DNA of 64,000 nucleotides from assembly GCA_943788725.1 (NCBI GenBank), contig CALSRJ010000005.1, forward strand, positions 1 to 64,000, read 5' to 3'. Made by a program: the position numbers and the translations under genes. This document shows, in pieces, positions 16,359 to 19,412 of the stretch (positions are counted from its first letter, which is position 1; every line of letters starts with the position of its first letter). The stretch is from an uncultured Flavobacteriales bacterium. Lineage in GTDB: Bacteria; Bacteroidota; Bacteroidia; Flavobacteriales_G; Salibacteraceae. The notes under the pieces are model-generated. The model ran no database searches and was not told the DNA's origin. It worked only from the letters and a program-made list of their open reading frames with translations.

Positions 16359-17537
16359 ATGATCAGAATAACCCAAATAACGTGTTGGATCGCAGTGATG
16401 CTTACGGTGTCATCTGGAGTTGCTTTGGGTCAGAAATTAAACGACCCGAGTATTCCCTCTCGAAAAGGAACGGTTCGCATGTACAGCAACCCGAAGATCA
16501 AAGAGAGCTCGATCGATTGGAAGTCAACGCGTCTTGAGTTCATCGCCGGCGGAGGAGCAACCGGATTCCTCGGAGATCTTGGAGGTCAAAACACACCTGG
16601 GAAACCCTTTATTTTCGACTACGAACCCACCACTACGCGATACAGCGTATCAGCAGGAGCCCGCTACTTTCTACGCGAATTTCAAGCCGTTAGAGGCTAC
16701 CTAACGTATGCGGAAGTGCAAGGGAGCGACGAACTCACCGAGTATCCCAACAGGAAATACAGGAATTTGAATTTTAAATCGCCAATTGTTGAGCTGGCGG
16801 GCATCTACGAGCTTCACTTGTTCAAGCCGAGTTACATTCATTTTGCGGGCGCCAACACCACCAAGCTATTCGACGGAAACCGCTTTGGTTCGTACTTAAG
16901 CCTTGGGGCAGGCATGTTTTACTACAACCCGAAAGGAAAGCTGGGAACGCAATATTACAACCTGCGTCCACTGCGTACCGAAGGGCAAGAATTCGAAGAC
17001 GGCCCTTCGAAATACAGGAGCATTGCTGTCAGTATTCCTATGGGGGGCGGGGTATACATGCTCCTCAATCATAACATTACCCTCGGACTCGACTTTGGAA
17101 TGCGGTTCACCACTTCCGACTACATAGACGACGCAAGTGGATATTTCTATGACAACGACGCGATTCGTGCTCGTGATGGAAAATTGGCCGCTTACTTCGC
17201 CAACCCAAGCGTCGCCATCCAGAATGTCCCCGATCGCAATTGGTACACTGAGAATCAGCCGCGAGGTGGGTCGACCAGTAACGACACCTACATGTTCTTC
17301 CAGTTCACGTTGAGTAAGTCGTTCACTCCCTCTGTATCAAACAAAGACTTTAAGCAACCCAAGAAGCGCAAAAACAAAGCGATTCCGAAAAAGAAAAGAC
17401 GATCATTTTTCAGCGGGGGAAAGGACAAGAACAAGACCTACAACAACAAGAAAATCAAGAAGTCTAAGCGAAGGTTCAAGGCGCCAAAACTCGATTTCGG
17501 AAAACGTAGGAAAAAGCGAAAGGCGACTAGCTTCTAA
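16359..17537 (+). CDS. DUF6089/PorG-like outer-membrane beta-barrel protein with basic tail
   Basis: A 392-residue protein with a signal peptide (CWIAVMLTVSSGVALGQ), then a beta-barrel region with the hallmark IAGGGATGFLGDLGG near residues 63-77 and repeating aromatic-glycine strands up to about residue 325. This start pattern matches DUF6089, the family that includes the T9SS outer-membrane protein PorG. The C-terminus departs from the family: from about residue 328 it is a Lys/Arg-rich tail (for example KKKRRSFFSGGKDKNK) of about 60 residues after the last predicted strand. A link to T9SS is inferred from family only. Confidence 0.75.
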   Translation: MIRITQITCWIAVMLTVSSGVALGQKLNDPSIPSRKGTVRMYSNPKIKESSIDWKSTRLEFIAGGGATGFLGDLGGQNTPGKPFIFDYEPTTTRYSVSAGARYFLREFQAVRGYLTYAEVQGSDELTEYPNRKYRNLNFKSPIVELAGIYELHLFKPSYIHFAGANTTKLFDGNRFGSYLSLGAGMFYYNPKGKLGTQYYNLRPLRTEGQEFEDGPSKYRSIAVSIPMGGGVYMLLNHNITLGLDFGMRFTTSDYIDDASGYFYDNDAIRARDGKLAAYFANPSVAIQNVPDRNWYTENQPRGGSTSNDTYMFFQFTLSKSFTPSVSNKDFKQPKKRKNKAIPKKKRRSFFSGGKDKNKTYNNKKIKKSKRRFKAPKLDFGKRRKKRKATSF

Positions 17538-17550
17538 GAGAGAAAGCTCC

Positions 17551-18868
17551 TTAGATTCGATAGATCAACGCGAATTGGAAATCTACCAATTGACTCGGCT
17601 CCTCACCATGAATATTGTACTCTGACTTACCATCGTACTGGCTTGTGATCGGGAGCATACCGCGCACGTCAGCCGATAGGCGATCAGAAAGCTTGTGCTG
17701 ATAACCCGCCATCATGCCGAACCTCAAACGCTTCATGCCTTCAATGCTGTTCTTATCATTCATCCCAAAATTGGCGCTGATATAATCCCGCGAGTTATAG
17801 ACCATGTAGGTCTCATTCTTCAATCGGATTAAATAATCTGCGAAGAACCCTATTGATGTCTTGGACGTTGCGTTCAAATCCAGGTTGAATTGCAGCGGCA
17901 TTTGTATATAGTCCATGGTTGTGGCTACCAAACTCTCGTGGATATTCTCCAGGTCATTTACTACCCCTGAGGTAGCGCCCTGACCGTAGTTATTGGCCAA
18001 CACTCCAATGATGGGCGCAAAATCTACTTCTTTGTACCTCTCTATACCATTACCCGATCTTCGCAAGTGTCCCACTTCTAAAGACACAGAAGTATTGGAG
18101 GAGATGGGAAAGGCATATCCGATGGAAAGAACATTGTTCACCCTCCATTGCGCCGGTTTGTGAATTGAATTTGACTCGCCGCTTCCAACCCGCACCCCAG
18201 CTCTAAGAAAGATACCCGTGTTAGCTGCTGACGCAACCTCAATGGATGGGATCGCCAACTGAGCGCGATCTAATAAAGCGGCCTCATGGGCTTCTAGTTT
18301 AAGGCGGTCCATTTTGCGAACAAGCCGATTTTCTCTTGTTGTTGCAACAAATTCTTGTCCGTAGGCGGATGCAGGCGTTTGGCCATGTTCCGCCCATCCA
18401 TCACCCTCAACCTGCGACGGCGACCCTTGGTCACTCTCCACAGTAGCCACTAAGTATGCTTGGTTCTGTGAAGCTGATGGCAGCTGCATTGAAGGCGTAA
18501 TAAACGAAGCGGTGCTCATCGCGCTGGAAGAGGCCTCCTCCCAACTCATTGGAGTGATGACAGCCGACCCTTTATCAGCACTTCCGACAGGTAACTCAGT
18601 TATTCCAACGGACCGCTCAAGAAGCAAAGGTTTGGGAGCATCCATCGTAGCCACCGCACTCACAACTGCCACTCCCGCCACAGAAGCCGCAATAGACCAA
18701 AACGAGCTCCCCGTGGCTCCACCTACTGCTACAGAGCTCGTTCCAAGCGACTCCAATGGATTGTTCCACAGCGGCCCATTGGCTAGCGGGGTCCACGGTG
18801 TGATCCTTCAAGCCGTCAAAGCGGCTGCGAAATACATCGTCGATATCGTGCATACCTGGATTATCCAT
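17551..18868 (-). CDS. Anti-sigma-like N-terminus fused to outer-membrane-type beta-barrel, frameshifted near 18750
   Basis: The gene should start at the ATG at 18868, which overlaps the upstream sigma-factor stop by 8 bp. The first about 38 codons (MHDIDDVFRSRFDGLKDHTV, then DPASQWAAVEQSI) are a typical short cytoplasmic lead of Bacteroidota anti-sigma-like proteins. Near 18740-18760 the coding frame shifts by one base. The shifted frame (ESLGTSSVAVGG, then a membrane helix SFWSIAASVAGVAVVSA) runs on to the stop at 17551 through a Ser-rich linker and a C-terminal beta-barrel (about residues 215-439). Read without the shift, the 5' part ends at 18617 and the 3' part runs from about 18756. This is a real mutation or a base error. 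The pairing with an ECF sigma factor suggests an envelope-stress or signalling role. Confidence 0.7.
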
Positions 18869-19412
18869 AAAGCAATGCCAAGTCCGGATATGCGACTTTA
18901 AGTTTTGATTGAATTTGCTTACGCGCTGAAGAAAGGTGCCATTTAGAGGTGCCCACTGAGATGTTCAATCGCTCCGCAATCTCCTTGTGACTATACCCGT
19001 CTATCGCAAACATGTTGAAAACCAACTTGCTGATCGGAGAAATGCTGTTGATGACCTGCATTAGCTCATCAACAGACATATTGTTCATGCCATCATTGTA
19101 AATCTGATGAGAGGGCATCATCGCATCAAAGGAGAAAAAGTCTTTGTAACGCTTGCTAGAGCGCACGTGGTCCAGCGCTGTATTGATCACGATTCGTTTG
19201 CACCAACCCTCAAAAGAATTCTCGAAGTGGTACTGTTCAACTTTTTGAAAAACCTTGACAAAGCCTTGGTTAACGACATCTAGAACCTCCTCATCGTCGC
19301 GTATATAACGACGAACAATCGCGAGCATAACAGAATAGTAGGCGTCATACACCTTCCGTTGAGCTATGCGGTTGTTTTGACTGCAGGCCTTTATTACGTC
19401 TTCCGTGATCAT
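18861..19412 (-). CDS. ECF-type RNA polymerase sigma factor (sigma-70 family)
   Basis: A 183-residue extracytoplasmic-function sigma factor. Region 2 covers residues about 18-85 (RKVYDAYYSVMLAIVRRYIR, then VLDVVNQGFVKVFQKVEQY) for -10 recognition and core binding. Region 4 is near residues 120-178 with the helix-turn-helix YSHKEIAERLNISVGTSKWH for -35 recognition. It overlaps the next gene, an anti-sigma-like membrane/beta-barrel protein, by 8 bp, so the pair is coupled and that protein is its probable regulator. A near-consensus promoter box (TATCTTTC) directly precedes its start. Target genes are unknown. Confidence 0.92.
   Translation of the reverse strand: MITEDVIKACSQNNRIAQRKVYDAYYSVMLAIVRRYIRDDEEVLDVVNQGFVKVFQKVEQYHFENSFEGWCKRIVINTALDHVRSSKRYKDFFSFDAMMPSHQIYNDGMNNMSVDELMQVINSISPISKLVFNMFAIDGYSHKEIAERLNISVGTSKWHLSSARKQIQSKLKVAYPDLALLYG

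Follow-up and report, generated by a model that had tools for sequence, protein, structure and literature searches.

A one-base frame change in a Dma-like anti-sigma gene next to an intact ECF sigma gene of a Flavobacteriales bacterium: probably an error in the sequence

In a 64,000-nt stretch of DNA from an uncultured Flavobacteriales bacterium of the Salibacteraceae (contig CALSRJ010000005.1; the whole stretch is called here the window), the anti-sigma gene that follows an intact ECF sigma factor gene is written in two reading frames that differ by a net one base. Judging from sequence comparisons, we favour a one-base consensus error, of sequencing or assembly, over a recent frameshift as the origin of this split, with a probability of roughly 85%, and the gene is most likely whole in the living organism. 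In all 13 orthologues found, the same place is crossed in one frame, and housekeeping genes of the same assembly carry breaks of the same kind.

One gene written in two frames

The ECF sigma factor gene (18861..19412, minus strand; 183 aa) is intact and would be the Das-like partner of the pair. Its product carries Sigma70_r2 (5.8e-13) and Sigma70_r4_2 (3.1e-12) in Pfam, scores 79.7 bits against the NCBIfam model TIGR02937, above the cut-off of 42.9, and 86.7 bits against TIGR02985, below the cut-off of 126.4, and is 67–94% identical to its 13 orthologues, 12 from the same genus and one from the family. The upstream open frame of the anti-sigma gene (18617..18868, minus strand; 83 aa) starts with its ATG at position 18868; as the sigma stop occupies 18861–18863, the two genes overlap by 8 bp, which agrees with the preliminary description. 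The genuine N-terminus of the anti-sigma protein corresponds to residues 1 to about 38–40 of this frame, and the frame matches residues 1–52 of the nearest orthologue at 63%. The remainder is a Cys-rich tail. That description was right in taking the tail for an out-of-frame reading; it had placed it in the 5′ part of the frame, and it is the 3′ part (residues 41–83). A Pfam search of the 83-aa product returned no family.

The same gene continues in a downstream open frame (17551..18756, minus strand; 401 aa, with a TTG start), which encodes the membrane helix, the tether and a C-terminal β-barrel. It is 74% identical to residues 39–438 of the nearest orthologue, and PF13568 (OMP_b-brl_2) is found in it at 1.7e-05 and 25.4 bits, just under the 27-bit cut-off. 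Relative to the upstream frame it is the +1 frame (18868−18756 = 112 = 37×3+1). Codon-usage scores in 62-nt windows prefer the upstream frame up to centres around 18762 and the downstream frame from around 18747, and homology of the downstream frame to the nearest orthologue begins at 18753, which together place the frame change at about 18720..18760 on the minus strand. Alignment to the nearest relative agrees with this interval, and the difference amounts to a net one base against all orthologues. The earlier proposal of a single gene in two frames, shifted near 18740–18760, is thus confirmed. Between 18700 and 18800 there is no run of more than 4 bases and no tandem unit repeated three times or more, and phase variation through a simple repeat was rejected on these grounds.

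The neighbouring gene on the plus strand (16359–17537) encodes a DUF6089 protein (6.8e-06) whose C-terminal tail of about 60 residues is very rich in Lys and Arg, which is odd for a presumed outer-membrane protein.

All 13 orthologues of the anti-sigma gene consist of one open frame of 416–481 aa with the same 8-bp ATG overlap. As these orthologous genes cross the same place in one frame, the split is more than a chance arrangement of two open frames, and the earlier view that an anti-sigma lead, a membrane helix and a barrel have been separated beside an intact ECF sigma gene is upheld. A wider survey gave 80 loci among the 581 relatives found, the 13 close orthologues included. In every one of the 80 products the helix comes at residue 32 or beyond, after a lead of no fewer than 31 residues, and the start lies no more than 90 nt past the sigma stop; the corresponding figures for the downstream frame of the window are 18 residues (helix at residue 19) and +107 nt. 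With the window included as a positive control, the survey showed the split arrangement in none of the 80 loci, and orthologues with separate genes, which had been named in advance as the finding that would overturn the idea of a split gene, did not turn up among them.

By size, 71 of the 80 products reach at least 250 aa (three of these running off a contig end), seven are naturally short and two are cut by a contig end. The seven short anti-sigma-like products (201–244 aa; L041, L048, L050, L055, L070, L088 and L099) come from Chitinophagaceae-type loci (Flavihumibacter, Sediminibacterium and others) and leave no room for a tether plus a barrel. Two further loci, L060 and L096, lie on contigs labelled Phycisphaerales and Azovibrio restrictus and bear this Bacteroidota type of sigma/anti-sigma pair; they are probably misbinned or misnamed MAG contigs.

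Selection and frame breaks elsewhere in the assembly

If the gene had been broken for long, its downstream half should have decayed. Against G008, the nearest relative, dN/dS is 0.112 for the downstream frame (400 codons), 0.024 for the barrel (217 codons), 0.219 for the tether and 0.121 for the first 38 codons of the gene, with 0.039 for the sigma gene (183 codons), ratios that are approximate because synonymous distances of 0.7–1.8 are near saturation. In relative-rate comparisons over the tether, 25 sites set the window's genome apart from the other orthologues and 41 set G008 apart, with 26 ties; in the barrel the figures are 4 sites for each, with 5 ties. The downstream half of the gene is thus under strong purifying selection and has changed no faster than in the relative, and no second lesion was found in it. 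Both dN/dS and the relative rates rule out long decay as a pseudogene, and the lack of any sign of relaxed selection means that the break is either very young or not real.

Is this break unique in the assembly? We compared 1.03 Mb of the window's genome (G000) with 1.30 Mb of G008. Among 1083 G008 ORFs of at least 100 aa, 490, amounting to 181,286 aa, had a match of no less than 60% identity, which in 472 cases extended over 90% of the ORF. Ten G008 ORFs were flagged as split in G000, and the anti-sigma gene was flagged as partial. Base-level alignment, which covered seven of the ten, confirmed internal one-base breaks in four genes, all outside the window: alaS (contig C3 of G000, around 130,790; TIGR00344, 1e-262), gatB (C3, around 190,900; identified by Pfam), atpG, encoding the F1 gamma subunit, with two breaks (C4, around 18,970–19,020; identified by Pfam), and the gene of a 495-aa hypothetical protein without a Pfam family (C4, around 62,240). 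As for the other three, the shift found at a DUF4476 gene falls before its probable ATG, and in a PNPOx gene and a PIG-L gene the fault may lie in either genome.

A search of the whole genome for other copies of alaS, gatB and atpG found none, only the two pieces of each. Among the 12 congeners, alaS is whole in 10, the remaining two reaching contig ends; gatB is whole in 11, with one lacking a match; and atpG is whole in 10, with one cut by a contig end and one (G009) whose match begins no earlier than residue 53, away from any contig end. The gene of the 495-aa protein occurs in two of the 12 and is unbroken in both.

The reverse survey flagged 5 ORFs among the 486 with a match, and the three that were aligned comprised two confirmed breaks of G008 and the same PIG-L gene. 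The two G008 breaks, each of one base, affect a Por_Secre_tail protein (C12, around 16,155) and a cyclophilin-type isomerase gene (C18, around 8,490).

Error in the sequence or mutation in the organism

Because alaS, gatB and atpG are broken in the same way and have no other copy that we could find, an error in the sequence is the simplest reading of such breaks. Indeed, a broken alaS together with a broken atpG is hard to believe in a free-living cell, so that at least some of the one-base breaks must be errors, and as the coding sequence compared (about 544 kb) holds four such genes in addition to this one, an error at the present site would be nothing exceptional. Three observations count against an error. 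The site is not a homopolymer, the longest run between 18700 and 18800 being 4, and so does not show the commonest type of long-read error. Along 128 kb syntenic with contig C43 of G008, the anti-sigma split is the sole clean break in the window's genome, and errors are therefore not dense in this region. Finally, G008 has at least two clean breaks of its own, so that some of the indels seen in dispensable genes of this genus may be real. On the same side, atpG is matched incompletely in the congener G009 although no contig end explains it, GatB is not necessarily an essential protein, and AlaRS can be active as an N-terminal fragment. Literature searches on the family of this genus with nanopore sequencing found nothing, and those on indel errors in assemblies found nothing relevant.

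The main competitor is a very recent, real frameshift, through which the gene would be broken and would yield only a soluble 83-aa polypeptide, with the sigma factor either released or permanently held. In its favour, the split is what the assembly shows. Outside the break the gene has stayed intact under purifying selection, as it also would with a young mutation, and the surrounding 128 kb contain no other clean break; moreover, the genome holds four other sigma genes with one-frame anti-sigma-like partners, which makes the loss of one pathway conceivable. We nevertheless consider this reading unlikely, given the comparable breaks in alaS, gatB and atpG, for which no other copy was found, and the absence of the split from all 80 related loci. 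Were the break genuine, the short product would still contain all those residues of the predicted sigma-binding segment that are invariant in 13/13 orthologues (M1, D10, F13, R16, F17 and W31), but no membrane helix. The sigma factor could then be released, or the fragment, which might still hold it, could retain it permanently and blind to any signal. The suggestion that the sigma factor has lost its regulator and is free is thus unsupported: similar breaks affect alaS, gatB and atpG, the gene shows no decay, and the N-terminal residues would be retained.

A 9-bp perfect inverted repeat at approximately 18704–18745, just after the frame change, raises the question of whether ribosomes might shift into the +1 frame within 18720–18760 with the help of a downstream hairpin, producing full-length and short forms at a set ratio. 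A 9-bp stem with a loop of 3–40 nt is rare in this contig (13 of 3000 random 81-nt windows), a figure to be read with the fact that the stem was noticed after the event, and RNA folding pairs it in a structure of 12 pairs. The folding energy is ordinary, however (z −0.84; equally good folds in 37 of 200 shuffles), the overlap codons hold none of the +1 slippery motifs familiar to us, and even an 8-bp stem is absent from the site in 12 of the 13 orthologues, the thirteenth having an unrelated one. None of the 13 shares the frame arrangement and none needs a shift. Programmed frameshifting is accordingly very improbable, and the same slight weight is given to its lineage-specific version, in which a +1 recoding site with the 9-bp hairpin would fix how much soluble, membrane-free fragment is made relative to the complete dual-membrane sensor and leave the sigma factor partly held by a signal-blind form. 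The hairpin may be due to chance, or may mark a spot where copying or sequencing slips.

Lastly, the two ORFs, the second with a TTG start, could be taken as they stand in a mechanical list, as the genes of a small Cys-rich protein and of a membrane-barrel protein with a start of its own. This reading was rejected as extremely improbable, since the orthologues are fused in 13 of 13 cases, codon scores mark the tail of the short ORF as non-coding in that frame and the short ORF matches no Pfam family.

Layout of the intact protein and of related pairs

FecR-type anti-sigma factors pair with FecI-like sigma factors. Like FecR, the protein considered here has a short N-terminal cytoplasmic segment followed by one membrane helix, and its gene adjoins that of an ECF sigma factor; unlike FecR, which has no β-barrel of its own, it carries a barrel in the same polypeptide. 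The AlphaFold2 model of the nearest intact orthologue has N-terminal helices at residues 8–17 and 27–39 (pLDDT about 50), which carry the invariant D10, F13, R16, F17 and W31, a membrane helix predicted at 55–76 with low pLDDT, a tether (pLDDT below 50 throughout residues 37–214) and a barrel at 218–437, most strands of which are modelled with high confidence. With a mean pLDDT of 61.3 and a pTM of 0.47, the barrel is the only well-predicted part. A hydropathy peak occurs at residues 51–60 in all 13 orthologues, the tether aligns with gaps and is poorly conserved among them, and PF13568 is detected in each at E-values up to 0.01. Foldseek places the OmpA barrel 1bxw first (E 7.1e-07; TM-score 0.58 by target length), and the best matches among solved structures are the OmpA, OmpW and Ail barrels.

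This arrangement recalls the Dma proteins. In PMC13088901, these are laid out as an anti-sigma domain, a transmembrane helix, a disordered tether and a C-terminal barrel beside an ECF21 sigma factor, and deletion of dma1 or dma2 is reported there to increase vesicle production through the cognate sigma factor; Pardue et al. 2024 (PNAS) is cited in it. As in Dma, the orthologues adjoin an ECF sigma gene, with the 8-bp overlap shared by the window, and combine N-terminal helices, a single membrane helix, a long tether predicted with low confidence, and a C-terminal barrel. All these parts lie in one continuous frame in 13 of 13 orthologues, and the copy in the window is split over two frames; the host also differs, belonging to a Flavobacteriales/Salibacteraceae-type lineage and not to Bacteroides. 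The likeness is one of layout, the B. thetaiotaomicron proteins having been compared by their description. On this comparison, the orthologues have the layout of the Dma family and the window copy, as written, is an incomplete member of it. The intact gene would thus encode a Dma-type partner with a short cytoplasmic sigma-binding segment, a membrane helix, a flexible periplasmic tether and a small outer-membrane barrel. Its start overlaps the sigma stop, and the two genes would share an mRNA. By analogy with the layout and with the Bacteroides papers, the protein may hold the neighbouring sigma factor until a signal at the outer membrane frees it.

Besides this pair, the window's genome has four more sigma genes, each followed by a one-frame anti-sigma-like partner. 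Two of these partners carry at their end not a barrel but CHU_C (the C-terminal domain of type IX secretion): one at L184:1965-2975 (C4 of G000; CHU_C 5.3e-14), behind the sigma gene at 105920–106414, and one at L182:245-1486 (C3 of G000; 1.1e-06), behind the sigma gene at 463787–464305. The first is matched over nearly its full length in 11 of the 12 congeners. An anti-sigma-like protein ending in CHU_C could report on type IX secretion itself. For comparison, Porphyromonas PorA is reported to be a C-terminal-domain protein that affects PorXY-SigP (PMC7712824), and among the papers found on CHU_C with anti-sigma factors none apparently deals with such a protein.

The break itself probably carries no biological weight. 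One-base consensus errors in near-complete assemblies can mimic pseudogenes, and housekeeping genes of the same assembly offer a quick test for them. The underlying gene would extend the known reach of Dma-type sigma/anti-sigma pairs to a genus of the Flavobacteriales.
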